From positions 3,410,001 to 3,474,000 of the forward strand of contig NZ_CP046175.1 of assembly GCF_009708215.1 (NCBI RefSeq): 64,000 nt of DNA. The letters run 5' to 3'. The position numbers were made by a program, and so were the translations under genes. The notes under the pieces were generated by a model. It had not been told where the DNA came from. It searched no databases and saw only the letters and a list, made by a program, of their open reading frames with translations. This stretch comes from Occultella kanbiaonis (lineage in GTDB: Bacteria; Actinomycetota; Actinomycetes; Actinomycetales; Beutenbergiaceae). Shown piece after piece: positions 8,399-45,640 of this stretch. Numbering within the stretch: the first letter of the stretch is position 1; every line of letters begins with the position of its first letter.

Positions 8399-10251
8399 TT
8401 GCCCGAGGGGGGCTCCGAGGACAGCGCGGCCACGAACGCCTCCTGCGGGACCTCCACCCGGCCGATGTTCTTCATCCGCTTCTTGCCCTCCTTCTGCTTC
8501 TCCAGGAGCTTGCGCTTACGGGAGATGTCTCCGCCGTAGCACTTGGCGAGGACGTCCTTGCGCATCGCGCGGATGGTCTCGCGGGCGATGATCCGGGCGC
8601 CGATGGCCGCCTGGATCGGCACCTCGAACTGCTGCCGAGGGATCAGCTCCTTGAGCTTGCCGGTCATCATCACGCCGTAGGCGTAGGCCTTGTCCCGGTG
8701 CACGATCGCGGAGAACGCGTCCACCTGCTCGCCCTGGAGCAGGATGTCGACCTTGACCAGGTCCGCGTCCTGCTCGCCGCTGATCTCGTAGTTCAGGGAC
8801 GCGTACCCGCGGGTGCGGGACTTCAGCTGGTCGAAGAAGTCGAAGATGATCTCCCCGAGCGGCAGGATGTAGCGCAACTCGACGCGCTCCTCGGAGAGGT
8901 AGTCCATGCCCTGGAGGGTGCCGCGACGGCCCTGGGCGAGCTCCATGATCGTGCCCACGAACTCGCTCGGCGCGAGCAGCGTGGCCTTGACGATCGGCTC
9001 GGTGACGGTCTTGACCTTGCCGGTCGGGAACTCGCTCGGGTTCCGGACGGTCACCTCGGTGCCGTCCTCCATGGTGACCTGGTAGATCACGTTCGGGGCG
9101 GTGGAGATCAGGTCGAGGTTGAACTCGCGCTCGAGTCGCTCGCGCACGATCTCCAGGTGCAGCAGCCCGAGGAAGCCGATCCGGAACCCGAACCCGAGCG
9201 CCACGGAGGTCTCCGGCTCGTACGCGAGGGCGGCATCGTTGAGCTTGAGCTTGTCGAGGGCGTCGCGCAGCACCGGGTAGTCGGAGCCGTCGATCGGGTA
9301 CAGGCCGGAGTACACCATCGGCTGTGGGTCCCGGTAGCCACCGAGGGACTCGGTCGCCGGCTTGGCCGCGTTCGTGACCGTGTCACCGACCCGGGACTGG
9401 CGCACGTCCTTCACCCCGGTGATCAGGTAGCCCACCTCGCCGACGCCGAGGCCCTGGGTGGGCTGCGGCTCGGGCGAGCTCACGCCGATCTCGAGGAGCT
9501 CGTGGGTCGCGTTCGTGGACAGCATCCGGATCCGCTCGCGCGGGGACAGCTGACCGTCGACCACTCGCACGTAGGTGACCACGCCACGGTAGGTGTCGTA
9601 GACGGAGTCGAAGATCATTGCCCGGGCCGGTGCGTCCGGGTCCCCGACGGGCGGCGGGACCTGCGCGACGATCGCGTCCAGGAGCGTCTCGACGCCGACG
9701 CCGGTCTTCCCGGAGACCTGCAGGCAGTCCTCGGGCTCCCCGCCGATCAGCGTCGCGAGCTCCTCGGCGAACTTCTCCGGCTGGGCGGCGGGCAGGTCGA
9801 TCTTGTTCAGGACCGGGATGATCGCGAGGTCGTTCTCCATGGCGAGGTAGAGGTTCGCGAGGGTCTGCGCCTCGATGCCCTGCGCGGCGTCCACGAGCAG
9901 CACGGCACCCTCGCACGCGGCCAGGGACCGGGACACCTCGTAGGTGAAGTCGACGTGCCCGGGGGTGTCGATCATGTTCAGCGCGAAGGCGGTCTCACCC
10001 ACCTGCCACGGCATCCGCACGGCCTGCGACTTGATCGTGATGCCGCGCTCACGCTCGATGTCCATCCGGTCCAGGTACTGGGCGCGCATGGACCGTGCGT
10101 CCACGACACCGGTCAGCTGGAGCATCCGGTCCGCCAGCGTCGACTTGCCGTGGTCGATGTGCGCGATGATGCAGAAGTTGCGCAGCAACTCCGGTGGCGT
10201 CGACGCCGGCTGGATGCGGGCGTTTGCGGCCGGGGTGGCGATGGGTGGCAC
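8395..10251 (-). CDS. lepA: Elongation factor 4 (LepA)
   Basis: A 618-residue translational GTPase that back-translocates or rescues stalled ribosomes. The G domain has AHIDHGKST (about 30-38), DTPGHVDF and NKID; the LepA-specific C-terminal domain ends with [19 protein letters not shown] at 10251 gives [14 protein letters not shown], the usual short actinobacterial lead-in before [20 protein letters not shown]. The open frame extends far upstream, but those residues are low-complexity antisense of a divergent gene. The ribosome-binding site is weak (GAGG about 9 bases upstream). It forms a coupled pair with hemW. Confidence 0.93.
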
Positions 10252-33064: not shown

Positions 33065-33192
33065 ACCGTCACCAGGTCGCGCAGCCGATCCATGGTCGCC
33101 GGTCCGATCCCGGAGACGTCATCGAGCTGTTCGACGCTGGTGAAGCCGCCGTTCTCGGTGCGCCAGTCGAGGATCCGCTCGGCGAGAGCGGG
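33061..33192 (-). pseudogene. comEA: comEA, 3' fragment (cut off by the integrated element)
   Basis: The minus strand reads PALAERILDWRTENGGFTS followed by VEQLDDVSGIGPATMDRLRD and a stop at 33061. This is the end of the first and the whole of the second helix-hairpin-helix of ComEA, the DNA receptor of the uptake machinery. No start codon lies in frame within the element sequence to the right. The matching 5' part ends at 44774-44782. Joining the two restores a continuous, canonical ComEA C-terminus (PGIGPAL from one side and AERILDW from the other). Confidence 0.93.
33184..33192. other. Left attachment junction (att site, comEA 3' side)
   Basis: On the minus strand the comEA codons CCC GCT CTC (Pro-Ala-Leu) mark where element sequence (to the right) meets chromosome (to the left). 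Compared with CCT GCG CTG at the other end, the shared bases are CC-GC-CT, so the crossover dinucleotide of the serine integrase lies within these 9 bp. The exact pair cannot be set without an empty site. Confidence 0.75.
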
Positions 33193-33254
33193 GCGTGCTC
33201 CATCATGCTTAAGGGAAGCGCGGCAAAGGGTCGCGCCGACCGAGGAGCAACGAC

Positions 33255-33575
33255 ATGCGCATCATCACGATTGACTGCGAGGAGCCGACCACGGCGCCCG
33301 CCCTGGCCGCCGAGCGAGTCGAGCCGAACAGGTGGAACGGCTGGGCCGTACCGGTAGCAACGCGCGCCGCGCTGGCCGCATTCATCACGGAATGGGCCCA
33401 CGTCGACCCGAACGGGATATGGCGCCCGGCGGGCGTGGTCGAGGAGGGCTCGACGCTCACGTATGACGACGGCGAGCACGATGACCCGGACGTGTGGCAG
33501 GCCGTCGGCGTCGACTCGACGGGCGCGGCACTGTACGCGCTCGACGGCTGGTGCTGGATCGAGGCGGACCGATGA
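33255..33575 (+). CDS. Hypothetical protein (element)
   Basis: A 106-residue acidic protein, first gene inside the left end of the element. It contains several Trp residues (RWNGWAVPV, DVWQAVGVDSTG, LDGWCWIEAD) and no recognisable domain. ATG at 33255 has a good GAGGAG ribosome-binding site. Its stop overlaps the next start (ATGA), so it heads a chain of five coupled genes that ends with the integrase. An early regulatory role is possible but not shown by the sequence. Confidence 0.7.
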   Translation: MRIITIDCEEPTTAPALAAERVEPNRWNGWAVPVATRAALAAFITEWAHVDPNGIWRPAGVVEEGSTLTYDDGEHDDPDVWQAVGVDSTGAALYALDGWCWIEADR

Positions 33576-34378
33576 GCCCGCGCCGAGGATCCTTGCTGGG
33601 CTCAGAGGTCGAGTACGTCGACGCCGACGGCAGGCCCGCTACGGGCACCGCGTGGAGTGAGGGCCCAGCCGCGCGTACCTACTGGGTGCTGCCCGCGAAC
33701 GGGTCGAGCGCGCACGCCGTACAGGGTCACGTGCTCGTCTACGCCCGGCCCAAGGACGCAGGCCTCGAGGCTGTCACCCGCGCCAATGCGACGGCGCCAC
33801 GCTGGGCTGCGCTCGAGCGGGCCGAGGCTCTCTCCGAGCGGATGCTGCGCGACGCACAGGCACGCGCCGAGCGAGCCCGCCAGCACGCCGAGTACCTCGA
33901 GGAGGCGGCCGCCATCGAGACCGCGCGCGAGGAGATGGCGGCGCACTGGGACGCCGAGGCCTACGCACAGTGCGACGCGCTGAGCGATGAGGAGGCGGCC
34001 GACCACACCCGCGCCGACATCGACGCGCGCCGCTGGGCCGCCTACTGGCGAGCCCGCGAGGCAGGCATGGACGAGCGCGCCGCCTACCCGCTGTTCATCG
34101 CCGAGAGCGGGCCCAGCCCTGCCGACATGATGGCGGCCCTGGGCTGGCGCGCCCGCGAGATCCGCGACGGCTGCTGGTGGGTCTACGGGCCCAACTGGGC
34201 CGTCAACCGTGAGCAGATCGAGCACGCCTACGCCCGATGGCTGGAAGGGCTCGACGCTCGCTATGGCGTGGTGCCCGACTACGGCGCCCGCAGGTGGCAG
34301 GCGCGGCGCGACGGCGAGCCCGTCGGCGAGGCTCCGAGCCCGGCGCTCGCCTACCGACTGCTGGCGGAGGTGGCGTGA
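33572..34378 (+). CDS. Hypothetical protein (element) with charged helical centre
   Basis: A 268-residue protein. An N-terminal SH3-like stretch (GSEVEYVDADGRPATGTAWSE) is followed by a long charged helical region (about 70-140, rich in Glu, Arg and Ala; likely coiled coil) and a C-terminal part with WRAREIRDGCWWVYGPNW. No family is recognised. It begins within the stop codon of the preceding gene and its own stop overlaps the next gene, consistent with coupled translation. Its close packing with the FtsK-like gene suggests a shared process. Confidence 0.7.
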   Translation: MSPRRGSLLGSEVEYVDADGRPATGTAWSEGPAARTYWVLPANGSSAHAVQGHVLVYARPKDAGLEAVTRANATAPRWAALERAEALSERMLRDAQARAERARQHAEYLEEAAAIETAREEMAAHWDAEAYAQCDALSDEEAADHTRADIDARRWAAYWRAREAGMDERAAYPLFIAESGPSPADMMAALGWRAREIRDGCWWVYGPNWAVNREQIEHAYARWLEGLDARYGVVPDYGARRWQARRDGEPVGEAPSPALAYRLLAEVA

Positions 34379-34380
34379 CC

Positions 34381-34656
34381 ATGGCTACCTCTCTGCGCGA
34401 CGTGCGCGCCGCTTTCATCGGTACCTGCGCCGGAGCCCGCGCGGCCGGGCTCGACCCGACCGACTGGGTCCTCGAGGAGGGCTCGAGCACCTACGGGCGT
34501 CTCTGGCGCATCATCGGCCGCGACCCGCGCACCGGTGGCCACTACTTCGTGCCGGGCGTCTCGGTCCCGCTGGGCACCACGCGCAGCGAAGCGCTACGCA
34601 GCCTCGAGGCGATGCGGGCCGCGTGGTCGGCCCTCACCGATCGGCGGGCGTCATGA
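34381..34656 (+). CDS. Hypothetical protein (element), phage-type small protein
   Basis: A 91-residue protein containing WVLEEGSSTYGRLWRIIGRDP and GTTRSEALRSLEAMRAAWSAL, a pattern seen in small uncharacterised actinophage proteins. GGAGG lies upstream and can serve either GTG at 34375 or ATG at 34381; the ATG is used here. The stop overlaps the start of the FtsK-like gene. Function is unknown. Confidence 0.65.
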   Translation: MATSLRDVRAAFIGTCAGARAAGLDPTDWVLEEGSSTYGRLWRIIGRDPRTGGHYFVPGVSVPLGTTRSEALRSLEAMRAAWSALTDRRAS

Positions 34657-36212
34657 GCGCCGTAGCGGACGCGCTCGACCGCGCGCTCAAGGACCACGGG
34701 ATCTCGGCGACCGTCGAGGAGATCCAGCACGGCGCCGCCGTCGACCGGTACTGCCTACGGCTGAGCCCGGGCGTACGGGTCGCGCAGGTCACGAAACTGG
34801 GCCCGGACATCGCGCTCGCCCTGGGCGCCGACCACGTCCGCGTGACGACGGCCGGGCACTTAGTGGGCGTCGAGGTCCCCGCCCGCGAGCGGGTCGAGGT
34901 GAGCCTGCTCGACCTGCAAGATGGGCTCGCGGCCGATCACCCGCTGCGGGTGCCCGTCGGGCTCGCCATCGACGGCTCCGGCGTCTCGGCGCGCCTCGAT
35001 CGCCTGCCGCACCTGCTCGTGGCTGGCACCACGGGCTCGGGCAAGTCGTCATGGACGACGGCGATCCTCGCCCACCTGCTCACCCACGCCAGCCCGGCGC
35101 AGGTACAGGTGCTGCTCATCGACCCTAAGCGGGTCGAGTTGGCGCCGTTCGCTCGCGTGCCGCATCTCGGCGCGCCAGTGGCTACCGACGTCCCGGCCGC
35201 CCTCGAGGTGCTCGACGGAGCCCTCGAGGAGATGGAGCGCCGCTACGCCCGGATGCAGGCGGCCGGCGTACGCAACGTCGCCGACCTGACCGACGCGCCG
35301 CCGTATCTGGTGCTCGTCGTCGACGAGCTGGCCGACCTGATGTTGGGCACCGGCAAGCGAGCCGAGACCGCCATAGTGCGCCTGCTGCAAGTCGGCCGGG
35401 CCGCCGGTATCCATCTCATCCTCGCCACCCAACGGCCGAGCGCCGACGTCGTCACCGGGCTCATCAAGGCGAACACTCCGAGCCGACTGGTGTTCGCCGT
35501 CCAGTCGCACACCGACTCCGGCGTGGCCCTGGGCCAGACGGGCGCGCAGGCGTTGCTCGGCGCAGGCGATGCGCTCTGGTGGCCGTCGGGCGCCAGCCAG
35601 CCCGAGCGGATCCAAGGGCCCTACGTCTCCCCCGACGACCTAGACGACCTGCTCGCCGGGATCTCCCGCATCGAGCCGCCCGCCATCGCGCTACCCACCT
35701 ACGCCGACGCCGTCGGGATACTCGAGGGCCCCGAGGCCGACGAGGCAGCAGAGATCGACGCCGCCCTCGAGGCTGCTCGCGAGGAGATCCGGCAAGCCGA
35801 GATCGACGCCGCCGAGGCCGAACAGCTCGCCGTCACGGCCGTGGCCGACGAGCCAGAGCCGGCCGTGGTCGAGCCCGCCGTGGTGCCCGTGCCTGTCATC
35901 GCGCCGCGGCACACGCCGGCGGCGCCCGCTCCCGTCGTGGTGCCGCCTGTCGCCGAGGCCTACACGCGCCAGGATCTCGAGCACGCCTACGCCAAGGGAC
36001 GCCACCACGGCGCCACGCTGGCCCCGCTGCCGGTACCGAGCCACCGTCCCGTGCTCGCGGCCGACAGGTGGCTGGCGGCCGCGCTGTTCCTGCTCGGCGC
36101 CGTGATCTCGTTCTTGGTCCTGCCAGCCCTGCCCGTCGCGGCAGGTCTCTGGCTCGCCTACGTCGTCACGCGCACTCGCACCCGCACCAACCAATGGAGA
36201 ATCGGACCATGA
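34653..36212 (+). CDS. FtsK/SpoIIIE (TraB-like) DNA translocase with C-terminal membrane helices
   Basis: A 519-residue hexameric-type DNA pump. Residues 15-85 resemble the FtsK alpha/beta domain (ISATVEEIQHGAAVDRYCLRL, LGPDIALALGADHVRV). Next come Walker A GTTGSGKSS (about 124-132), Walker B YLVLVVDELADLM and LATQRPSADVVTGLIKAN. A long acidic Ala/Glu/Pro linker leads to two hydrophobic segments at about 472-505. FtsK and TraB proteins normally carry their membrane helices at the N-terminus; here they are C-terminal and there is no DNA-reading gamma domain. In AICEs such a protein moves double-stranded DNA between cells; here transfer is an inference. It is coupled to the integrase by an ATGA overlap. 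One rare TTA codon lies at 34859. Confidence 0.9.
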   Translation: MSAVADALDRALKDHGISATVEEIQHGAAVDRYCLRLSPGVRVAQVTKLGPDIALALGADHVRVTTAGHLVGVEVPARERVEVSLLDLQDGLAADHPLRVPVGLAIDGSGVSARLDRLPHLLVAGTTGSGKSSWTTAILAHLLTHASPAQVQVLLIDPKRVELAPFARVPHLGAPVATDVPAALEVLDGALEEMERRYARMQAAGVRNVADLTDAPPYLVLVVDELADLMLGTGKRAETAIVRLLQVGRAAGIHLILATQRPSADVVTGLIKANTPSRLVFAVQSHTDSGVALGQTGAQALLGAGDALWWPSGASQPERIQGPYVSPDDLDDLLAGISRIEPPAIALPTYADAVGILEGPEADEAAEIDAALEAAREEIRQAEIDAAEAEQLAVTAVADEPEPAVVEPAVVPVPVIAPRHTPAAPAPVVVPPVAEAYTRQDLEHAYAKGRHHGATLAPLPVPSHRPVLAADRWLAAALFLLGAVISFLVLPALPVAAGLWLAYVVTRTRTRTNQWRIGP

Positions 36213-37618
36213 CCCGTCGCGCAGCCATCTACGCCCGCATCTCGAGGGACCGCGCCGGAGCCGGCCTGGGCGTCGAGCGTCAGGAGCAGGACTGTCGAGC
36301 CCTCGCCGAGCGGCTCGGTTGGGAGGTGGTGGCCGTCCATGTTGATAACGACATCTCGGCATACTCCGGCAAGCGCCGCCCCGGCTACCGAGCCCTGCTC
36401 GAGGAGATGAGCAGCGGGCACGTTGACGCGGTGCTCGCGTGGCACACGGACCGGTTGCACCGATCGCCGAGCGAGCTCGAGGAGTTCGTGACGCTCTGCG
36501 AGGCGCACGACGTCATCACGCACACCGTGACTGCCGGACCGATCGACCTGGCGACGCCGTCAGGCCGCATGGCCGCCCGCGTGCATGGCGCCGCGGCACG
36601 GTACGAGTCGGAACAGAAGGCCGAGCGCATTCGGCGCCAGAAGCAACAGGCTGTCGAGAAGGGCCAGTGGCGCGGCGGTGCGCGCCCCTTCGGCTACGCC
36701 GCCGACGGCATGACGCCGCGCGAGGATGAGGCGGCAGCCATCGCCGCGGCGACACGTGCGGTGGTGGACGGGCACACTCTCGCCTCGATCGTGCGCCGGT
36801 GGCACGCAGCCGGGCTCACCACCTCCACGGGTCGCGACCACGACGTGCGGAGCGTGCGTGACGTCCTGGTCCGTCCACGTAACGCCGGGCTCATCGAGGT
36901 CAACGACGAGCCCGCTGGCCCGGCAGTCTGGCCAGCCATCGTCTCCGAGGATCTCTGGCGACAGGGGCGATCGATTCTGCTCGATCCTGCCCGGCGCACG
37001 AACCACGTCGGCCCCATGCCGAGGTACCTGCTGTCCGGGATCGGGCGGTGCGGGATCTGTGACGCCGTATTGGTTATGACGAAGAGCGGCAAGGGTGGCC
37101 GGTCCTACGGCTGCAAGTCTGCGCGTAACCACGTCTCGAGGTCGGCCGAGCCGCTCGACCTGCTCGTGCGTGGCGTGATCGTTGAACGGCTGCGCCGGGA
37201 TGACCTGGCTGACCTACTCGCCGAGAGGGACGACGGCGAACTACGCCGCGCCCAGGACAAGGCGGCAGCGTTACGGGTCCGCGAGGACGAGCTGGCGCAG
37301 GCGTACGCGTCCGGCGCCATCTCGGTCCAGCAACTCACCACGGCGAGCGCGCTCCTCCGGACCCAGCGGGAGGCGGCCGAGCACGCCGTGACGGCCGCGA
37401 GCGGGCACTTGAACGTCGGGTGGCTGGCCACCGCGCCGGACCCAGCCGAGGCGTTCCTGGCCGCGCCGCTGGATCTCCAACGGGCCGTCGTGGCCGCGCT
37501 GGTCGATGTCGTCGTGCTGCGTGCGCGGCGTGGCCGCCAGCCCGGTTGGAAGCAGGGCGGGCCCTCGCTGATCGACCCAGAGCGTGTGCTCATCACCTGG
37601 CGCAGCGACACGCCGTGA
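36209..37618 (+). CDS. Large serine recombinase (integrase)
   Basis: A 469-residue site-specific recombinase. The catalytic domain (about 1-150) has the nucleophile Ser12 in IYARISRD and DAVLAWHTDRLHR. The recombinase domain (about 165-260) has RPFGYAADGMTPREDEAAAI, and the zinc-ribbon region (about 285-330) has CGICDAVLVMTKSGK and YGCKSARNHVSRSAEPLD. A coiled-coil and C-terminal segment follow. The fourth zinc ligand position lacks Cys, and a nearby His (NHVSR) may replace it. It is the enzyme expected to have inserted the element into comEA, acting on short att sites without long direct repeats, which agrees with the junctions. GGAGA precedes the ATG; the start overlaps the FtsK-like stop. 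No excisionase (recombination directionality factor) is recognisable. Confidence 0.95.
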   Translation: MTRRAAIYARISRDRAGAGLGVERQEQDCRALAERLGWEVVAVHVDNDISAYSGKRRPGYRALLEEMSSGHVDAVLAWHTDRLHRSPSELEEFVTLCEAHDVITHTVTAGPIDLATPSGRMAARVHGAAARYESEQKAERIRRQKQQAVEKGQWRGGARPFGYAADGMTPREDEAAAIAAATRAVVDGHTLASIVRRWHAAGLTTSTGRDHDVRSVRDVLVRPRNAGLIEVNDEPAGPAVWPAIVSEDLWRQGRSILLDPARRTNHVGPMPRYLLSGIGRCGICDAVLVMTKSGKGGRSYGCKSARNHVSRSAEPLDLLVRGVIVERLRRDDLADLLAERDDGELRRAQDKAAALRVREDELAQAYASGAISVQQLTTASALLRTQREAAEHAVTAASGHLNVGWLATAPDPAEAFLAAPLDLQRAVVAALVDVVVLRARRGRQPGWKQGGPSLIDPERVLITWRSDTP

Positions 37619-37677
37619 ACGACACGCCGCCGATCGGCGCCATGCCGACGGGGTCGAGAACCGCTCTGGCGTGTCGC
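37605..37677. repeat. CGACACGCC repeats after the integrase gene
   Basis: CGACACGCCG occurs twice in direct orientation (from 37606 and 37620), and its inverse GGCGTGTCGC lies at 37668-37677. GCGACACGCC (37605-37614) and GGCGTGTCGC make a perfect 10-bp inverted repeat with a 53-bp interval. This could be a terminator for the integrase operon or a protein-binding site. Just to the right, the gap before 37722 may hold the promoter of the next operon (TACGTT around 37692). Confidence 0.5.
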
Positions 37678-37721
37678 GCTAGTGCCCGGGCTACGTTGAA
37701 TGCAGGACGAAGGGAGATCCA

Positions 37722-38141
37722 GTGAAGCACTGGCGGATCACATGCGAGGGCAGCGGTGGAAAGCAGCACTCGCCGAAGTTGCTCGGCATCATCGCGGACG
37801 CGTGGAACACCCCGTGGCCGGCCTCGAACGCGACCCAAGCGGCTCACCACGAACTTGCTGCGCGCGTCCTGGGAGACCGCTACGAGCCCGAGCCGTCCGT
37901 CGAGCCGATGGGCGGCCTAATCGGATTCGCCGTCCATGAACAGACGAAACGAGGACGCCGTATTGGCTGGCGCACCTCGAGGGGCGTCGTGCTCGCTGGT
38001 GGGGTGGTCACACTGACGTGCCCAACGTGCTCGGCCGAGCGTCCGCTGCGCGAGGTCGAAGTGCACGCCCATCTCGCCACCCTGCCCCCTGGTGCAACTG
38101 TTGAGGCACGGGCGTTGGGCCTGCTAATCTCGTCCATGTAG
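37722..38141 (+). CDS. Hypothetical protein with a CPTC motif (element)
   Basis: A 139-residue protein. The C-terminal part contains LTCPTCSAERPLREVEVHAHL, in which CPTC and a downstream His pair could bind zinc. The N-terminal half (MKHWRITCEGSGGKQHSPKLL, AHHELAARVLGDRYEPEPS) has no known domain. The GTG at 37722 is preceded by AGGGAG. It is the first gene after the integrase and may open the replication operon. A DNA-binding or regulatory role is possible, not shown. Confidence 0.65.
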   Translation: MKHWRITCEGSGGKQHSPKLLGIIADAWNTPWPASNATQAAHHELAARVLGDRYEPEPSVEPMGGLIGFAVHEQTKRGRRIGWRTSRGVVLAGGVVTLTCPTCSAERPLREVEVHAHLATLPPGATVEARALGLLISSM

Positions 38142-38210
38142 TTCAAGAGGAAAGGCTCCGACCTGGGGCCTGCACTCGGGGTCGCGTCGAGTTCGCTCCG
38201 CTATCCGGAC

Positions 38211-38510
38211 GTGGCCGCCATAGGCGGCACGTTGCACACCGATCCCCGGATCACTCACGTGTCCACGGTCAACGCCGCTGTTCGCGCCAAGTACGGCGCC
38301 CCACTCCCAGACGTGGCCCGGCTCCGCGCCAGGCTCGCATCGCTTGTGCACTGGCATCCCGAGAGGGTGGACGAGATCGCCGGCCTGCGGGCCGAGATGG
38401 CGACGCTCTCACTCGAGGCCCACACCCGCGAGGTGCTCGCTGCCCACACGCTCGACGCCCACCAGCGGCAGCGACTCGTCAGCCTGCTCGAGGCCGGCGG
38501 TGCACGATGA
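38211..38510 (+). CDS. Hypothetical helical protein (element)
   Basis: A 99-residue protein beginning at GTG 38211 and predicted mostly helical (VARLRARLASLVHWHPERVDEIAGLRAE and LAAHTLDAHQRQRLVSLLEAG, each part of a separate helix). No family recognised. The start is uncertain because no strong ribosome-binding site precedes it. Its stop overlaps the start of a 47-residue protein whose C-terminal half resembles the end of this one (QKARLAGLL against QRQRLVSLL), suggesting a small duplicated helical module. Confidence 0.5.
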   Translation: MAAIGGTLHTDPRITHVSTVNAAVRAKYGAPLPDVARLRARLASLVHWHPERVDEIAGLRAEMATLSLEAHTREVLAAHTLDAHQRQRLVSLLEAGGAR

Positions 38511-38650
38511 GCGCCACTGTCGCCGAACTCCTGGCCGCCGTGCGCGCCGCCGGGCTCGAGAAGGCCGTCGCTGAGATCGCCGATCGGGCGCCCCGACTCG
38601 ACGTGTCCCAGAAGGCTCGTCTCGCCGGCCTTCTCGCGAGCGACGCGTGA
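38507..38650 (+). CDS. Small 47-residue helical protein (element)
   Basis: ATG at 38507 overlaps the preceding stop (ATGA) and the frame closes at 38650. The product, MSATVAELLAAVRAAGLEKAV then AEIADRAPRLDVSQKARLAGL and LASDA, is Ala/Leu-rich and helical, with a C-terminus like that of its upstream neighbour. Codon bias and the overlap support it as a real gene. Function is unknown. Confidence 0.5.
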   Translation: MSATVAELLAAVRAAGLEKAVAEIADRAPRLDVSQKARLAGLLASDA

Positions 38651-38659
38651 ACGCGCGAA

Positions 38660-38685
38660 CGCCCCGGACCGAGGAGACCGGGGCG
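38660..38685 (+). terminator. Hairpin between the small genes and the replication gene
   Basis: CGCCCCGG (38660-38667) and CCGGGGCG (38678-38685) form a perfect 8-bp stem with a 10-base loop. It directly follows the 47-residue gene. To its right a locally AT-richer stretch has TAGCAT (38718-38723) as a possible -10 box for the replication gene. This argues that the Rep protein starts at 38764, not at the GTG at 38647. Confidence 0.55.
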
Positions 38686-38763
38686 AACGCTATCCAACGA
38701 GCCGAGCTGGCACGCCCTAGCATACTAGCCACCGCCGACAGCGCCAAAGGCACACCGAGCCCG

Positions 38764-40638
38764 ATGAACGTGGCGCTCGGCTACGCACGATCGGGCATCC
38801 CGGTCTTTCCCTGCGGGCCCGACAAGCGGCCGCTCACACGGCACGGATTCAAGGACGCGACCACGGATCTCGCCGTCGTGCGGGACTGGTGGGCGCAGCA
38901 CGCCGACGCGATGGTGGCCACGCCGACGGGCTCGGCGTCCGACCTGGCCGTGCTCGACGTCGACGTGAAGCACGGCATCGACGGTGAGGCCTCGCTAGCG
39001 GCGCTCGAGGCCGAACTGGGCCCGCTGCCCGTCACGATGGCGGTTCGCACGCGATCCGGTGGTCGCCACCTGTACTTCCGCCACGACGGCGCGAGTCGGT
39101 CATCGGCCAGCCGGATCGCGCCCGGCATCGACGTTCGGGCCGAGGGAGGCTACGTCATCGCTCCGGGCTCGCCCGGGTACGTAGTTGAGCGCACGGCCGA
39201 GAGGGCCACGCTCCCCGCCGCCTGGGCCTCTCGGCTCGCGGCGTCCTCGATCGAGGCGACATCGCCCGTGGCCGACCAGTGGGCGACACTGAACGAGAGC
39301 CGACGCGTGGCCGCGCTGGCGTGGGCATCGGCGTCGCTGGCCGGCCTCGAGTCCGAACTGCGCGCCGCGGCGTCATGGCCGGAGGGCCAGCGAGACGACT
39401 ACGGGCGCGGCTGGGAGAAACTCACCGCCGACGCCTACCTGCGCGCGCTGCGGATCCTCGCGGCCGTACCCGATCTCGACGGCGCCGCTTGGAGGGCGAG
39501 GCTGCTCGCTGCCGCTCCCAGGGACGCATCGTGGACCGAGCGTGACGTGGCCGAGAAGTGGGCCAGCCAGCGCTCGGCGGCTGCGCGCAAGGGCCCGGCA
39601 GACCTCTCCAATGTCGGCGGCTCGATCTTCACCGCCACCAGCGATGCGCCCCAGGAGCCGACGGCGGGTGTGCCGGGCGTGGTGCCCGCGGTGGACTGGG
39701 CTGCCCTCTGGGCGGACCGGACCGAAGAGGAGTGGATCGTCGAGCCGATCCTGCCCGCACGGCGGCTGGTGGCCCTCTACTCCCCGCCCAAGATGGGCAA
39801 GTCGCTGCTCATGCTCGAACTGGCCGCGAGCGTAGCCGCCGGGCGGTACGTGCTCGGAGCGACGCCGGACCGGCCTCGCCCTGTGCTCTACGTCGACTTC
39901 GAGAACGATCCGAAGTCGGACGTACGCCCACGACTACAAGCGATGGGTTTCGCCCCGGAGTCCCTGGGCCAGCTTCACTACCTCTCGTTCCCGGCGATGA
40001 ACTACCTCGACTCGGCGGCCGGCGCCGAGCAACTCATGGCGAACGTACGGCACTACGGCGCCGAGGTGGTCGTCATCGACACCGTCTCGCGCGCGGTTGG
40101 TGGCGAGGAGAACGAGAACGACACCTGGCTCTCGTTCTACCGGCACACCGGCCTCGCGTTGAAGCAGGCGCGGGTCGCGTGCATCCGACTCGATCACACC
40201 GGCAAGGACGAGACGAAGGGCCAGCGAGGTGGCTCGGCGAAGTCCGGCGACGTCGACGCCGTCTGGCGTCTCTCGGAGGTGGTCAAGGACGAGACATACC
40301 GACTCACGTGCGAGGCGAACCGGATGCCCGTGGCCGAGAAGGTGCTCACCATCCGCCGACTGACTGAGCCGCTACGTCACGACGTGCAGGTCGGCGGCAA
40401 CTACGCCGCCTTCGAGGCGAAGGTCGCCGAGGCGATCCGCGCGCTGGATGCCGCCGACGTCGACCTGTCACTGGGGCGCGACAAGGCGCGCGTAGCCCTA
40501 TCGGTTCACTTCGGCGAGGACTATCGCGTACGCAACGACGTGCTGTCTAAGGCGCTCGATAAGCGCCGCGGACCTGTCCCCGATTCGCGGGGACAGGTGC
40601 CTTCCACCGACCTGTCCCCCTCGACTGGGGACAGGTGA
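38764..40638 (+). CDS. Replication protein: bifunctional primase/polymerase plus RepA-like ATPase
   Basis: A 624-residue protein. The N-terminal Prim-Pol domain begins ALGYARSGIPVFPCGPDKRPL, with metal-binding acids in LAVLDVDVKHG (about 60-70) and the conserved GGRHLYFRH (about 100-107). A helical linker follows. The C-terminal RecA/KaiC-like ATPase has Walker A PPKMGKSLL (about 341-349), VLYVDFENDP, and Walker B EVVVIDTVSRA (about 435). It is expected to prime and unwind the element's own origin. ATG at 38764 is preferred; a GTG at 38647 overlaps the upstream gene but puts a hairpin and promoter-like sequence inside the frame. The last 20 codons are made of the inverted repeats of the candidate origin. 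Confidence 0.88.
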   Translation: MNVALGYARSGIPVFPCGPDKRPLTRHGFKDATTDLAVVRDWWAQHADAMVATPTGSASDLAVLDVDVKHGIDGEASLAALEAELGPLPVTMAVRTRSGGRHLYFRHDGASRSSASRIAPGIDVRAEGGYVIAPGSPGYVVERTAERATLPAAWASRLAASSIEATSPVADQWATLNESRRVAALAWASASLAGLESELRAAASWPEGQRDDYGRGWEKLTADAYLRALRILAAVPDLDGAAWRARLLAAAPRDASWTERDVAEKWASQRSAAARKGPADLSNVGGSIFTATSDAPQEPTAGVPGVVPAVDWAALWADRTEEEWIVEPILPARRLVALYSPPKMGKSLLMLELAASVAAGRYVLGATPDRPRPVLYVDFENDPKSDVRPRLQAMGFAPESLGQLHYLSFPAMNYLDSAAGAEQLMANVRHYGAEVVVIDTVSRAVGGEENENDTWLSFYRHTGLALKQARVACIRLDHTGKDETKGQRGGSAKSGDVDAVWRLSEVVKDETYRLTCEANRMPVAEKVLTIRRLTEPLRHDVQVGGNYAAFEAKVAEAIRALDAADVDLSLGRDKARVALSVHFGEDYRVRNDVLSKALDKRRGPVPDSRGQVPSTDLSPSTGDR

Positions 40639-40772
40639 GGGACAGGTGATGACTTTGGCGCGAGATCCGTTGCAAACAAAGGGTTTCACCTGTCCCCAAT
40701 TCTGCGGGGACAGGTCGGGACAGGCACCACCGGCCACCTGTCCCCGATGTCCCCCTCCCTATAGGGGGGACA
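40572..40772. repeat. Array of inverted ACCTGTCCCC repeats: candidate replication origin of the element
   Basis: Three palindromic pairs of ACCTGTCCCC and GGGGACAGGT occur at 40572-40598 (7-bp centre), 40610-40636 (7-bp centre) and 40688-40715 (8-bp centre). In addition there is an extra AGGGACAGGT at 40638-40647, a single ACCTGTCCCC at 40736-40745, and a related palindrome, TGTCCCCC with AGGGGGGACA, at 40748-40772. The array starts inside the 3' end of the replication gene and continues into the gap before 40907; an AT-richer stretch (about 40648-40687) lies between the second and third pairs. Position, repetition and symmetry are those of Rep-binding iterons. The remaining gap (40773-40906) shows nothing else clear. 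Confidence 0.75.
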
Positions 40773-40906
40773 GCGGTGGGGACAGCGGGCGGGACTGCTC
40801 GATCCGTAGTCGTAAACCGACGAGCGACTGGCCGGCGCGGCGATCGAGCCGAGGACCACCTGGCCCACCGTGCCGAAGATCCGAACCACTCTCGAGGAGT
40901 TAATCG

Positions 40907-41227
40907 ATGACCGACTCAGAACAGGACTACCGACCAGCGGGCCACTCGACGACCCAGATGGTGCCGGAGGCGTTTCTCTGCCCGACGTGCAACGCCGAGC
41001 CGGGCGTCGACTGCACACGGACCAATCCCGGGGCACACCAGCGTCGCGTCACCCGGTGGGCGAAGTCCGCCCAACGCGTCAGTGACGCACTGGCTGGCCG
41101 ACCCGACTACCGGGCCATTGCCCAACTCTCCTCGGTCGAGCTGGCCGAGGCACAACGGCGGGCCATCATCCGCTCGCTCAAGAACCGCATCATCCATCAT
41201 CACCGAACCAAAGGACTCACATCATGA
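40907..41227 (+). CDS. Phage-type zinc-finger protein (element)
   Basis: A 106-residue protein with FLCPTCNAEPGVDCTRTNPGAHQRRV, the CxxC...C...H pattern of the small DNA-binding phage zinc finger widely found in actinophages. It is followed by a basic helical tail ending in RRAIIRSLKNRIIHHHRTKGL. It is a probable nucleic-acid-binding protein and sits immediately after the origin-like repeats. ATG at 40907 follows GAGGAG; the stop overlaps the next start. It may regulate replication or packaging (inference). Confidence 0.72.
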   Translation: MTDSEQDYRPAGHSTTQMVPEAFLCPTCNAEPGVDCTRTNPGAHQRRVTRWAKSAQRVSDALAGRPDYRAIAQLSSVELAEAQRRAIIRSLKNRIIHHHRTKGLTS

Positions 41228-42078
41228 GCGCACGAATCCAGAAGGCCGATCCTCGCTGGGAGATGGGCACCGCGAGCAAGCTCCTCGCCGTGCTCGAGGA
41301 GATCCCCCTCACCGACGCCGCCCAGGAGGCCGCCCGCGACCTCGAGACCGCCGTGACCGAATACGGCCGGGCGATGGCCGGCGTGAAGACCGTCGACACG
41401 GCCGAGGCCGACCACGCCCGCAAGATCCGCGCCGAGGCAAACGCGGCCGTGAGCGGCGACCGCGACCCGAAGGCGATCAAGGCGCCGGACTTCGCCGACG
41501 CCCGCCAGAAGGCGACCGCGATCGCCGAGGCGACCCTGGCGAAGGCGACCGCAGCACGCGCCCACCTCGATCGCACCATCGTGGCCGAGCGCGGCGCCTG
41601 GGCGGCCATGCTGGCTGACAACATGGCTCAGACGTACGCCAGCGCCGCCGAGGCGCTCACGGCCGCCCAGGAGGCGCTCGCGACCCTGGTGAGGGCTCAC
41701 GACCTGGCCACCGACGCGGCCCGCCAGTCCGACCCGAGCCGCGGCGTCAAGTTCGTGCCGGAGACCGGCCAGCTCGCGGCCCTCGAGAAGGTCGCCACCT
41801 GGCTGGCCGACCACAAGTCCCAACTCTCGGCCGTGCTACGCGAGGAGCTGCTCACCCCGCCGCTCGAGGAGCGCTACGCGCTGGCTGCCCGGCACTCCGG
41901 CCGGCTCCGGGACATCGAGCGCTCCGAGAACTGGTCCAAGACCGCGTTCTCGCTCGAGTGGTCGCCAGCCAACGACCGTCGCGACGACACGTACGTGTCC
42001 ACCGCCCGGGGACCGGCACAGCCCGGTCTCGGCGGCGGCACGTCGGCCGAAGCCGAGCAGTACATCGACCTGTTCTGA
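41224..42078 (+). CDS. Hypothetical coiled-coil protein (element)
   Basis: A 284-residue, Ala/Glu/Lys-rich protein. Residues 20-150 are almost entirely helical with heptad-like repeats (LLAVLEEIPLTDAAQEAARD, ARQKATAIAEATLAKATAARA), and the C-terminal 60 residues are polar and probably loosely folded, ending in AEQYIDLF. A short acidic/hydrophobic C-terminal tail of this kind can be a docking peptide, as in SSB-type proteins (speculative). It starts inside the stop codon of the zinc-finger gene. A terminator hairpin follows. Confidence 0.68.
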   Translation: MSARIQKADPRWEMGTASKLLAVLEEIPLTDAAQEAARDLETAVTEYGRAMAGVKTVDTAEADHARKIRAEANAAVSGDRDPKAIKAPDFADARQKATAIAEATLAKATAARAHLDRTIVAERGAWAAMLADNMAQTYASAAEALTAAQEALATLVRAHDLATDAARQSDPSRGVKFVPETGQLAALEKVATWLADHKSQLSAVLREELLTPPLEERYALAARHSGRLRDIERSENWSKTAFSLEWSPANDRRDDTYVSTARGPAQPGLGGGTSAEAEQYIDLF

Positions 42079-42083
42079 CGGGC

Positions 42084-42112
42084 GAGGCGGGGCCTACCAC
42101 GGGCCCCGCCTC
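42084..42112 (+). terminator. Terminator hairpin before the terS gene
   Basis: GAGGCGGGGCC (42084-42094) and GGCCCCGCCTC (42102-42112) give a perfect 11-bp stem with a 7-base loop just after the coiled-coil gene stop. It separates the replication-side genes from the terminase small subunit gene, whose ribosome-binding site (GAAGGGA) follows. Confidence 0.75.
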
Positions 42113-42139
42113 TCCAACCACCGACCGAAGGGAACCACC

Positions 42140-42490
42140 ATGACCGACCGACCCGCCCCTCGAGGGCTCAAGAAGTCCGGCAAGGCGCTCTGGGCGTCCA
42201 TCGTCGACGAGTACGACATCGAGGAGCACGAGGCGCTGCTGTTGCTCGAGGCGTGCCGAGTCGCCGACCGGCTCGACGCTCTCGCCGTCGCCCAGCGAGG
42301 CGCACCGCTCACCGTGAGCAACGCCCGGGGCGATGAGGTCGCCTCGCCATACCTGGTCGAGTCCCGCCAGCAAGCAATCGTGCTCTCGCGGCTCATCGCC
42401 TCGCTGCGCCTGCCGTCGGGCGATGAGGACGTACGGCCCCAGCGCCGCGGATCCGCCAGGGGCGCCTACGGCATCCGGGGCGCGGTGTGA
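42140..42490 (+). CDS. Phage terminase small subunit (P27-like)
   Basis: A 116-residue helical protein. PRGLKKSGKALWASIVDEYD, ALLLLEACRVADRLDALAVA and YLVESRQQAIVLSRLIASLRL follow the pattern of actinophage P27-type terminase small subunits, which recognise packaging sites on phage DNA. No large terminase, portal or capsid genes are in the element. A lone TerS is the hallmark of phage-inducible chromosomal islands, which use it to redirect a helper phage's packaging motor to their own genome. ATG at 42140 follows GAAGGGA. The assignment rests on pattern recognition, not a search. Confidence 0.78.
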   Translation: MTDRPAPRGLKKSGKALWASIVDEYDIEEHEALLLLEACRVADRLDALAVAQRGAPLTVSNARGDEVASPYLVESRQQAIVLSRLIASLRLPSGDEDVRPQRRGSARGAYGIRGAV

Positions 42491-42726
42491 GGCGCCGCCG
42501 GCCCAAGTCCGACACCCTGCTGCCACTGCCCGACGAGCTCAAGGCCGCGCGCACCCGAGAGGAGTGGCTGGCCACCCTCGAGGACTGGGCGGCCAGCCAC
42601 GTGCCCTACACCTCACCGTGGGCCGAGGCGCTCACATGCACCCAGGAGATCGCCGCGTTCGAGTACGGGCCCGAAACGGCCGGCCAGTGCCTGCGCGAGC
42701 TGGTCAGACGTTGGCCCTCGAGATGA
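42487..42726 (+). CDS. Hypothetical protein downstream of terS (element)
   Basis: A 79-residue protein starting with GTG at 42487, overlapping the terS stop. It begins with a basic run (MRRRRPKS) and continues with TREEWLATLEDWAASHVPYT and ETAGQCLRELVRRW; no family recognised. Coupling to terS suggests a shared role, for example a packaging accessory. Its stop overlaps an ATG at 42723. Confidence 0.58.
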   Translation: MRRRRPKSDTLLPLPDELKAARTREEWLATLEDWAASHVPYTSPWAEALTCTQEIAAFEYGPETAGQCLRELVRRWPSR

Positions 42727-42836
42727 CTCGATCGCATAGTGAGACGTCGCAAGACACACCACCCGTTCTGCGGCGGTATGTCGGTGGTCGGGAGGAGGAT
42801 GCGCGTACGCCTACCAACCAACCCCAGGAGCAGGCA

Positions 42837-43031
42837 ATGGCACCCACGGCGATATTCCAAGCGTTGAGCGTCGACGACGCCAAGACTCGACGCGCCGAGT
42901 TGCTCGGGCGCTTGTCGATCACCGAGCATGAACTGCGCGAGCGCGCTGCACGCTACGAGCTCGCTGCCAACGAGTTGGCCACCCTCGACGAGGTCGACAA
43001 CCTCGACTATCTACTTGGGGAGGTCGACTGA
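42837..43031 (+). CDS. Hypothetical small helical protein (element)
   Basis: A 64-residue protein (MAPTAIFQALSVDDAKTRRA, then ELLGRLSITEHELRERAARY, ending DYLLGEVD), probably two helices. ATG at 42837 has AGGAG upstream; an alternative ATG at 42723 would add 38 polar residues. It might be a small regulator or anti-toxin-like protein, but nothing identifies it. The next gene begins directly after its stop. Confidence 0.58.
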   Translation: MAPTAIFQALSVDDAKTRRAELLGRLSITEHELRERAARYELAANELATLDEVDNLDYLLGEVD

Positions 43032-43787
43032 TTGTCCCAGCCGCCGCGTAGCCTCGCCGAGCAGGCGAGGGCTTTCGCGAACGAACTGACGGCAAGCGTC
43101 TATGCGGTGATCGGCTCGAACTGCGCGCCGTTCGTGGCCCGGGCGCTCACCCGCCCGGGCTCGGAGAACTTCACCGTTCGGCAGGCGCCCTCCACCGGCA
43201 TCCCGCTGCCAACCCAGGGCGCCGAGCCCGTGACACTGACAGCGGACTACAAGTGCGCCTTCGATGGAATCGGCCGGCATCTGCGTATCAACAAGTCCTC
43301 TATCGCCGTCTACTACGGCGGCGTTGCGCAGGGTGAGCCGCTGTTCCGATACGAGTACGACCGCAGCATCTCGCCGAAACTGCCACGAGCTCACTTCCAC
43401 GTGCACGGCCACCCATCCAACATCGCCGGCCTCATGTACATCGGCGGCGACGGCACCAAGCGAGGGCGCTACCGTCAGGACGACATCAACCGCGGCCGAG
43501 ACCCAGTCCAGAGCGAGTTTCACTTCCCGCTGGGCGGCGACCGATTCCGGCCCACCCTCGAGGACGTGCTCCAGATCCTGGTCGAGGAACTGGGAGTGCA
43601 GGCTCAGGGTGGGTGGCGACAGAAACTCGGTGAGGCGCGGGCGCGGTGGCGGGACATCCAGTTGCGCGCCGCGGTGCGAGACAACCCGGCAGCCGCTGCT
43701 GGCGCTCTCGAGGATCTCGGCTACGCCATCACCCCACCGGAGGCTGGCCATCCGACAGGTACGCCCGAGCAGACCACTCGACTATGA
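43032..43787 (+). CDS. Hypothetical protein with an HxHxHGH motif (element cargo)
   Basis: A 251-residue protein using a TTG start (43032-43034) with GGGGAGG upstream; no ATG or GTG gives a comparable product. The centre reads PRAHFHVHGHPSNIAGLMYIG, a cluster of four His residues resembling a metal site. After it come DDINRGRDPVQSEFHFPLGGD and a helical C-terminus. I know no family that fits. Its position between the terS cluster and the attachment site is where satellites carry cargo such as anti-phage functions. That role is inferred from position only. Confidence 0.6.
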   Translation: MSQPPRSLAEQARAFANELTASVYAVIGSNCAPFVARALTRPGSENFTVRQAPSTGIPLPTQGAEPVTLTADYKCAFDGIGRHLRINKSSIAVYYGGVAQGEPLFRYEYDRSISPKLPRAHFHVHGHPSNIAGLMYIGGDGTKRGRYRQDDINRGRDPVQSEFHFPLGGDRFRPTLEDVLQILVEELGVQAQGGWRQKLGEARARWRDIQLRAAVRDNPAAAAGALEDLGYAITPPEAGHPTGTPEQTTRL

Positions 43788-43788
43788 C

Positions 43789-43974
43789 TCAGCGGCCGAC
43801 CAGTTTCTCGGCATCCCTGTACGCGCCACCCACCACCGCATCGGCGATTGTCCGGGCGTCGCCCTCATTTTCGTAACCCTGGCCGCCGTCGGTCGCGATG
43901 ATGAGCCCATTGTCGGCCTTGAGATTCCACGCCCATCGGCCGTCGGCCCGCTTGTAGACCAGTCGTGTCGCCAT
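43789..43974 (-). CDS. DUF1508 (YegP-like) small protein
   Basis: A 61-residue protein, MATRLVYKRADGRWAWNLKA, then DNGLIIATDGGQGYENEGDA and RTIADAVVGGAY. It matches the short repeat of DUF1508 proteins (W.W.L.A.NG.II...GQGY....A), whose function is unknown. It is the only clear minus-strand gene in the element, and one copy of the repeat is present instead of the two in E. coli YegP. ATG at 43974; AAAGGGG lies upstream. Its independent orientation suggests a moron-like cargo gene. Confidence 0.75.
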   Translation of the reverse strand: MATRLVYKRADGRWAWNLKADNGLIIATDGGQGYENEGDARTIADAVVGGAYRDAEKLVGR

Positions 43975-44091
43975 CCTGGAAGCACCCCTTTGTAGGTCCA
44001 CTGGTCTGCCCAGGCTAGGGCGAGCAAAGGGCACCGTCTCGCGAACGGGAGTCGAGTTCGCAATCCCATGACGTGACGGGTTCAGAAGCAC

Positions 44092-44107
44092 CATGCTTCG
44101 GAGCATG
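44092..44107 (+). promoter_or_regulatory. Start-codon hairpin or operator
   Basis: CATGCT and AGCATG flank a TCGG tetraloop, forming a perfect 6-bp stem that contains both candidate ATG codons of the cargo membrane-protein gene. In RNA it could hide the start; in DNA it could be a repressor site. The rest of the right end (44546-44773) has no gene that I can support; it is locally AT-rich just before the junction (GATATATAAA near 44745). Confidence 0.4.
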
Positions 44108-44545
44108 ATCGAACTCTGGCAACTACTGGTCGCGCTCCTGGTCGGGCTCTCCGGCGTCGCCGCGGCGATCGTCACCACGGTGCTCAACCACAGAGCCAAC
44201 AAGGAGAGTGGCAGGCGTGCCGAGGATGCCGCTAGCCGAGCCGAGCGCCGTGCAGTCGACGACGAGCGGCGAGAGCGAAAGATCTCGGCGTACGGCGACT
44301 ACCTCACAGCGCACGCAAGGGTGACGAAGTTCGGCATCCCAGATCAACCGGACCTAGCGACCCTGCTCCATGACACGAACCACCGAGCCCAGCTCGTCGC
44401 TTCGCGCGCGGTCCGTGCGCGGTTGCAGTCGCTCCCAGGCGGAGGAGATGAAGCGCTTCTCGGCAGCGTCGGCGATCTGCGGTCCGGTCTCGTAAGCCTC
44501 ATGGTGGTGGACATTGAGAGCACATACCCGCCGGGCGCCCCCTAG
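44093..44545 (+). CDS. Hypothetical membrane-anchored coiled-coil protein (element cargo)
   Basis: A 150-residue protein with one N-terminal transmembrane segment (LWQLLVALLVGLSGVAAAIVTTVL) and a long charged helix (about 35-65, rich in Arg and Glu), then a helical C-terminus. It resembles many small phage or satellite membrane proteins of unknown role; superinfection exclusion is a possible but untested function. ATG at 44093 lies inside a perfect hairpin (CATGCT-TCGG-AGCATG, 44092-44107); a second in-frame ATG at 44105 closes the hairpin, so the true start is uncertain. Confidence 0.6.
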   Translation: MLRSMIELWQLLVALLVGLSGVAAAIVTTVLNHRANKESGRRAEDAASRAERRAVDDERRERKISAYGDYLTAHARVTKFGIPDQPDLATLLHDTNHRAQLVASRAVRARLQSLPGGGDEALLGSVGDLRSGLVSLMVVDIESTYPPGAP

Positions 44546-44755
44546 CCTCAGGCACGTTTCAGCCTGCACGCACTCTCAGACGCATTGCGGTACGGGCGGC
44601 CGAGCGAGCTGGCCGAGGGGTCATGGGGCAGGGGTCGAGGCGAGCCCGGCCGGCGCGCGACCGAGGAGCTGGGTGCCCGAGCGCGTGGCCACCCTGGCGC
44701 GGCAGCGACCGGGCGCAGGGACAAGATGGCCGGATGCGCACCGATATATAAACCG

Positions 44756-45640
44756 TCATGGGACACGACTTGACAGCGCAGGTCCGATTCCGGGCAGTTC
44801 CTCGAGGTCCGCGGCGGTCGCCGTGTTCAGGTCGATCGGCCCGCCGGCGTCCCCGCCCGCGTCCGTGCCGGTGCCGGTGCCGGTGCCGGACTGCGTACCG
44901 GGGGCCGCGGTGGGTGGCGCGGTCTCGCCGACGGCCGGGACGTAGACCTGCTGCCCGTCCTGCAGCCAGCCGGCCAGGTTCACCGCGTCGAGATCGGCGT
45001 CGGCGGTGGGACCTCCAGCGGCCAGGACCGCGTCGTCGACCCTGGAACCTGCGGGGAGTTCGTAGACGCCGGGGATCAGGACGGAACCGGCCACATGGAC
45101 GACGGCAGCCGAGTTCTCGTCCGTGGGCTGCCCGGACGCCACCGGCGAGGTGGACGGGCCAGGCTCGGGCGAACCGGGCCGGCCGGTCGTGTCGGTCGCC
45201 ACGGGCGCACCGGGGGTGGACAGGGGTGGCTGGGGGACCTGCTCCGGCTCACCCCGGGGCCAGACGATGGCGAGGGCGATCCCGGCCAGAACGACCACCG
45301 CGATGCCGACCCGGGCAGCCATCGACGCGGGCATCCCCCACCGGCGCCGGGACCCGTTGGCATGCCGCCGTGGCGTGCGGGTCTTGTCGGGCCGCAGTGG
45401 CTCACCGGCCTCGTCGTAAGGCCGTGGCGCATGGGCCCCGTCGGAAGGCCGTGGCTCGACCGCACCACCGCCGGTCTCGGCAGGATCCTCGGCCCAGGGA
45501 TCCGCCGGACCCTCGGACCAGCCAGCCCCCGGCGCGGTGGTGCGATCCGGTCGGTCGGCGGGCACCGGGTCCGGCACGGCATAGGCCACCCGAAGCACGC
45601 GCCGTAGCCGGTCCCGCGGTTCGGTTCCTCGACGCTCCAC
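44756..45640 (-). pseudogene. comEA: comEA, 5' fragment (truncated by the integrated element)
   Basis: The frame from GTG 45640 encodes a Pro/Asp/Arg-rich cytoplasmic N-terminus, one transmembrane helix (GIAVVVLAGIALAIVW), a Pro/Ser/Thr linker, an SLBB domain (AVVHVAGSVLIPGVYELPAG, DGQQVYVPAVGE), a Gly-Thr linker and the start of a helix-hairpin-helix (DLNTATAADLEELPGIGPAL). It then diverges into SSRVP and stops at 44756. ComEA is the membrane-bound DNA receptor for transformation. Without the second hairpin and most of the first, this 294-residue product should not bind DNA. The GTG start is tentative. Confidence 0.9.
44774..44782. other. Right attachment junction (att site, comEA 5' side)
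   Basis: On the minus strand the comEA codons CCT GCG CTG (Pro-Ala-Leu) lie where chromosome (to the right) meets element (to the left). Beyond it the frame reads Ser-Ser-Arg-Val-Pro and stops, so these five codons come from the element. The partner junction is at 33184-33192. Confidence 0.75.

Follow-up and report, generated by a model that had tools for sequence, protein, structure and literature searches.

The Rep proteins of SaPIs recognise iterons 3′ of rep by means of their C-terminal domain, and their helicases belong to the DUF927 or Primase_Cterm/D5 families (PMC7581432). The SCCmec helicase Cch2 uses its C-terminal domain to bind repeats that lie downstream of cch2 (PMC7581432). RSF1010 has a RepA-type hexameric helicase, iterons and hairpin priming sites (PMC4234260, PMC4434180); its primase starts at the ssi hairpins (PMC4434180). 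ORF904 of pRN1, and the corresponding protein of phage BIP-1, are PrimPol-helicases that carry a winged-helix domain at the C-terminus; the origin proposed for them is a stem-loop 3′ of the gene (PMC4234260). Finally, AICEs are defined by the presence of an integrase, a Rep or Prim-Pol protein, and FtsK/SpoIIIE in one integrated element (PMC3218068).

Here, we describe a rep gene, and an array of short repeats at its 3′ end, in an integrated element of Occultella kanbiaonis. The analysis covered a stretch of 64,000 nucleotides (the window), to which coordinates refer unless a relative is named. We conclude that the array is very probably the replication origin of the element, with the repeats serving as iterons for the putative C-terminal helix-turn-helix (HTH) of the element's own Rep.

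As at SaPI origins, the array lies directly 3′ of a rep helicase gene. However, the window Rep is an AAA_25, RSF1010-RepA-like helicase fused to a PF09250 PrimPol domain. SCCmec cch2 also has repeats behind the helicase gene, and here too they are putatively bound by the C-terminal domain. Conversely, Cch2 is a D5-type helicase with three AAGTG repeats and a separate primase. Like RSF1010, the element has a RepA-family helicase, iterons and a hairpin that is a candidate priming site. Whereas RSF1010 has separate RepA, RepB′ and RepC proteins, the primase, helicase and putative iteron-binding domain are here in one chain. The location of the array 3′ of rep is a further difference from RSF1010. 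A stem-loop 3′ of a PrimPol-helicase gene is shared with pRN1 and BIP-1, although it is much shorter than the 100 nt of pRN1. Those replicons have an SF3 helicase and no iterons, in contrast to the RepA-like helicase and iteron array of this element. By the features tested, the replicon falls outside the SaPI, RSF1010 and pRN1 families. Its origin would nevertheless work in the manner of the SaPI iteron origins. Among the mostly open-access papers searched, none joined prim-pol and iterons.

The Rep protein and the repeats at the 3′ end of its gene

The rep gene (38647–40638, + strand) encodes a PrimPol-helicase of 663 amino acids. The PrimPol domain spans residues 43–178 (Pfam PF09250, E = 3e-38) and includes the typical motifs LDVDVKHG at 103, GRHLYF at 139 and GIDVRAEGG at 160. 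A Walker-type helicase domain occupies residues 347–565, approximately (PF13481, AAA_25, E = 2e-29). These are the sole Pfam matches in Rep. The closest solved relative of the helicase is RSF1010 RepA, as judged from a profile match (1g8y, E = 1.1e-6) and from a match of the predicted fold (1nlf, E = 4.4e-12). The PrimPol and helicase assignments are both established by sequence. AlphaFold predicts that residues 583–642, approximately, form a C-terminal three-helix HTH domain, whose helices have block pLDDT values near or above 90. A Foldseek search of the PDB with this domain gave no significant match, and VIA-align returned weak matches, mostly to winged-helix proteins, with Z at most 4.8. 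Because these fold matches are weak, the HTH stays a prediction.

Seven exact copies of ACCTGTCCCC are present, starting at 40572 (+), 40589 (−), 40610 (+), 40627 (−), 40688 (+), 40706 (−) and 40736 (+). Six of these are arranged as three inverted pairs with centres of 7, 7 and 8 bp. Pair 1 (40572–40598; 10+7+10) and pair 2 (40610–40636; 10+7+10) are within rep. Since the stop codon is 40636–40638, both are protein-coding, and the last base of pair 2 falls in the stop codon. The near copy ACCTGTCCCT (40638–40647, − strand), a single near match to ACCTGTCCCC, follows. Pair 3 (40688–40715; 10+8+10) is beyond an AT-rich spacer and precedes a lone GGGACA core site (40718–40723, − strand) and the lone exact copy (40736–40745, + strand). 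The last core site, GGGGACAG (40778–40785, − strand), is 3′ of a palindrome, TGTCCCCCTCCCTATAGGGGGGACA, at 40748–40772. When the TGTCCC core is counted, the array contains 12 sites.

An earlier, sequence-only reading of this DNA had described seven exact copies and one near copy, with three inverted pairs of 7–8 bp centres, straddling the end of rep. This is correct base for base, and the further related palindrome that it mentioned is TGTCCCCCTCCCTATAGGGGGGACA. It had placed the whole at 40572–40772; the array stands but its end does not, since it runs about 12 bp further, to include GGGGACAG at 40778. The same reading had proposed that the last residues of Rep are dictated by the sites. This holds: the LSPxxGD-like tail of Rep in the window, and at three related loci (L023, L025 and L058), is one repeat pair read in frame. 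In relatives with different repeats, rep mostly stops ahead of the array.

The repeats are more numerous than expected by chance. Allowing one mismatch, there are 18 matches in the window compared to 6.7 expected, and none of 100 shuffles reached 18. Only 22 exact copies of ACCTGTCCCC were counted in the complete 5.65 Mb genome, and 7 of these fall within the 174 bp of the array. We also counted 7-mers in an unbiased way. The commonest at the rep 3′ end was found 11 times in 750 bp; for 200 shuffles the mean was 3.4 and the maximum 5. No Rfam family or tRNA was found in the window.

Inverted pairs are typical of sites for dimeric regulators, and autoregulation by Rep is conceivable. The array might then be an operator or stoperator, where Rep or a repressor controls transcription, and not an origin. 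We consider this very unlikely. The array is behind rep, not at a promoter, and the sole promoter-like match nearby (minus strand, 40549–40520) is weak. Furthermore, an AT-rich spacer and a hairpin are not features of operators, and the repeats vary with the Rep C-terminus, as described below for relatives of the element.

Repeats and Rep C-termini among relatives

A further 39 Rep rows came from scanning IMG/VR, GTDB contigs, whole genomes and a phage collection. This gave 40 rows, including the window and phage mu1/6; two of them, L045 and L060, are the same sequence. For genome contigs, matches were obtained with an alignment as the query and not with a single Rep. Identity to the window Rep was 39–63% over the compared part in the alignment and up to 67–68% over the helicase in local matches. 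No near-identical copy of the window Rep was found; the closest relatives are about 57–63% identical over the helicase and C-terminus.

Short repeats form a significant array at the rep 3′ end in 36 rows out of 40, where significance means a 7-mer count reached by 0–5 of 200 shuffles at that place. Thus, the position of the array is conserved. At L031, the array (CGATCCG) is displaced and sits behind an inserted ORF. This ORF, between rep and the iterons at 8919–9430, looks by eye like a GIY-YIG endonuclease. Arrays are visible, but weaker, at L038 and L071, and L064 encodes a Rep relative with no clear array at the rep 3′ end. The sequence-only reading had suggested looking for the same repeats beside related prim-pol genes. 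Repeats are found there but their letters vary. They include TGTCCC, TGTGCC, TGTCCG, TGTTCC, CTGCCCG, CGTGCCG, GGTTCCC, ATGCCCC, CACCCCG, CGATCCG, GATTCCC, GGTCACC, GCGCCCA and GCGCCGA, among others.

Streptomyces phage mu1/6 provides an example. Its gp21 protein has a helicase of 40% identity, and the gene carries at its 3′ end a CCTGCCC array and a CTAAAG hairpin. Conversely, the repeat is a different one and the array falls within the coding sequence, which continues into a CxxC tail. At L033, L058, L061, L065, L068, L069 and L071, the rep frame likewise stays open across a large part, or the whole, of the array and hairpin. Most of these read-through frames end in a CxxC/HxxC zinc-finger-like tail; elsewhere, a separate CxxC ORF is behind the hairpin.

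The repeats and the Rep C-terminus change jointly. In close pairs of relatives, with helicases 85–96% identical, the repeat letters differ in most or all copies and the C-terminal HTH differs too. Between L026 and L027 (helicase 96%) TGTCCC has become TGTGCC at 9 of 9 sites, with spacers that are 83% identical. The changed stretch of rep encodes helices 2–3 of the C-terminal domain; helix 1 and the tail are unchanged. The L037 and L039 Reps are 95% identical in the helicase and 42% in the C-terminus. Here, GTGCCCC is replaced by GATTCCC at 6 of 7 sites and the hairpin is nearly the same. For L052 and L055 (helicase 85%) 5 of 7 sites are changed and spacers are 80% identical. L045 and L049 (helicase 94%) differ at 7 of 9 sites; this is a weaker pair because, outside the sites, the arrays are only 53–56% identical. 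As a control, we compared L039 and L041, which have helicases that are 98% identical and C-termini that are 81% identical. The repeat is kept at 7 of 7 sites.

Across 34 Reps (a set that takes in L041 and L071 and leaves out L063) a partial Mantel test gave a weak correlation between repeat and C-terminus, given the helicase (r = 0.13, p = 0.023). The correlation between repeat and helicase, given the C-terminus, was not significant (p = 0.21). The strong evidence for joint change comes from the four close pairs and the control, and the correlation across the whole set is weak. Most simply, the C-terminal HTH of Rep would bind the repeats. The sequence-only reading had held that an absence of repeats beside near-identical Reps would speak against an origin. 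Because no near-identical copy of the window Rep was found, we examined near-identical pairs among the relatives, and no such absence was seen. Together, the arrays in 36 of 40 rows, the displaced array of L031 and the joint change with the HTH support its proposal of a candidate origin that also helps to locate relatives. Natural Rep/repeat pairs that differ by one letter in all repeat copies, along with Rep helices 2–3, are ready-made tests of origin choice by an initiator.

Partition centromeres and packaging (pac) sites can also be short repeat arrays, and the element encodes a TerS-like protein. It is extremely improbable, however, that the array is a centromere, or a pac site read by this protein. 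The letters of the repeats track the Rep C-terminus in close pairs, and of the element proteins that were scanned none was recognised as ParA/ParB-like.

The spacer, the terminal hairpin and a proposed mechanism

The spacer between the iteron clusters (40648–40687) is a candidate unwinding element. Its AT content is 50%, compared to 30% for the element, and 0.8% of the element's 40-nt windows are equally AT-rich. Some short motifs recur in the spacers of relatives. Thus, CCGCAGGTCAGA occurs in L023 (10435–10446), L025 (10007–10018), L033 (3944–3955), L051 (7088–7099) and L055 (7019–7030), and L055 has two further occurrences, approximately 1 kb apart. It is not present in the window's own spacer. 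The motif TTTCCCTCAC recurs in L026–L029, and TTTCCCTCACAAA is found in the spacers of L026 (8973–9170), L027, L028, L029 and L050, which represent the other C-terminal class.

The terminal hairpin TGTCCCCCTCCCTATAGGGGGGACA (40748–40772, + strand) is a candidate priming structure. It has a pyrimidine-rich 5′ arm, a CTATAG centre and an outer stem made of iteron cores. Computed folding indicates that it forms as single-stranded DNA. A similar hairpin is behind the array in most relatives. Stems centred exactly on CTATAG occupy this place in 9 of 37 loci; 354 control windows contained none. Hence, the CTATAG-type terminal hairpin is specific to the rep 3′ end.

Could this hairpin alone be a transcription terminator for rep, outside the origin? 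It is GC-rich and directly behind the gene. Actinobacterial terminators are frequently without a T run. Against this reading, no T run is behind the window hairpin and no terminator was called. At L045, L052 and L055 a T run comes before the hairpin and an A run after it, which is the wrong way round for rep. In addition, the rep frame continues past the hairpin at L058, L061, L065, L068 and in mu1/6. A terminator is thus improbable, and we set it aside on the basis of the missing T run and the reversed T and A runs of the relatives.

The inner form of the hairpin is kept in close Rep pairs whose iterons differ, so that some other factor, rather than the Rep C-terminal domain, probably reads it. 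By analogy with the ssi sites of RSF1010, or the pRN1 stem-loop, it may be a priming structure. A Rep-bound origin is the best explanation for the array because the repeats and the C-terminal HTH change jointly in close pairs and the hairpin stays.

We propose the following scheme. Once the element is excised by its serine integrase, Rep would bind the inverted TGTCCC pairs that flank the AT-rich spacer. Bound Rep would then load the RSF1010-RepA-like ring helicase and the spacer would be opened. The PrimPol domain could prime on the strand laid bare in this way, possibly using the CTATAG hairpin much as RSF1010 RepB′ uses the ssi hairpins, and host enzymes would carry out extension. Binding is inferred from the joint change, and the later steps are drawn by analogy. 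Overall, this would be the SaPI scheme, run with RSF1010-type parts in one chain and with the addition of a pRN1-like stem-loop 3′ of the gene.

A candidate origin with its own initiator is defined for a little-studied group of actinobacterial phages and integrated elements. Metagenomes can be searched for such origins by the rule that a PrimPol/RepA gene has, at its 3′ end, both an array of short repeats and a CTATAG-like hairpin. The natural Rep/iteron pairs could also supply compatible replicons for actinobacterial vectors. A broader proposal is tentative, and we hold it with slightly more doubt than confidence. The Reps may be a family, widespread in actinobacteria, that unites RSF1010 primase, helicase and iteron-binding functions in one chain. 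The origin would have two parts: a CTATAG-type hairpin that hardly varies and is used by the N-terminal parts of Rep, and an iteron whose letters switch in every copy each time the C-terminal HTH is altered. Such origin switching would allow co-resident phages and elements to escape incompatibility. If so, about twenty natural Rep/iteron pairs would be available, from which a recognition code of the HTH could be read.

The integrated element in comEA

The element (33187–44774) is inserted in comEA and has a 2-bp AG core at both ends. In a genome of the same genus (G001, locus L073) comEA is whole, and the two flanks share an AG overlap of 2 bp where they join, which fits a serine integrase. 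Because the element sits inside the gene, comEA is interrupted in this strain. The insertion is in the helix-hairpin-helix part of comEA, beside comEC.

Upstream of rep are genes for an FtsK/SpoIIIE translocase (34653–36212, + strand; PF01580, E = 1e-45), possibly a transfer protein, and a large serine integrase (36209–37618, + strand; PF00239 and PF07508; PHROG 95, E = 1e-90). Relatives of this integrase are also encoded upstream of rep at L057, L058 and L061. Directly behind the candidate origin is a gene for a small, putatively zinc-binding protein (40907–41227, + strand; PF24623, E = 1e-6). In many relatives the same place is taken by a CxxC protein or by the CxxC tail of Rep. The TerS-like protein, resembling a terminase small subunit (42140–42490, + strand), matches PHROG 1496 (E = 5e-22) and nothing in Pfam or NCBIfam. 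The scanned proteins of the element included none that was recognised as a capsid or structural protein.

Like the Prim-Pol AICEs (SLP1-like), this is an integrated actinobacterial element with integrase, Rep/Prim-Pol and FtsK/SpoIIIE together, which is the gene content that defines an AICE (PMC3218068). Conversely, in Prim-Pol AICEs a separate replication gene follows Prim-Pol, whereas this element has a single Rep and a TerS-like gene. The integrase, rep-ori and TerS-like protein, with no capsid gene recognised, resemble the content of a PICI-like satellite, for which FtsK is unusual. Judged by gene content, the signs are mixed and the element resembles an AICE or a phage satellite. Unlike the other genes of the element, one for a DUF1508 protein (43789–44202) is on the − strand.
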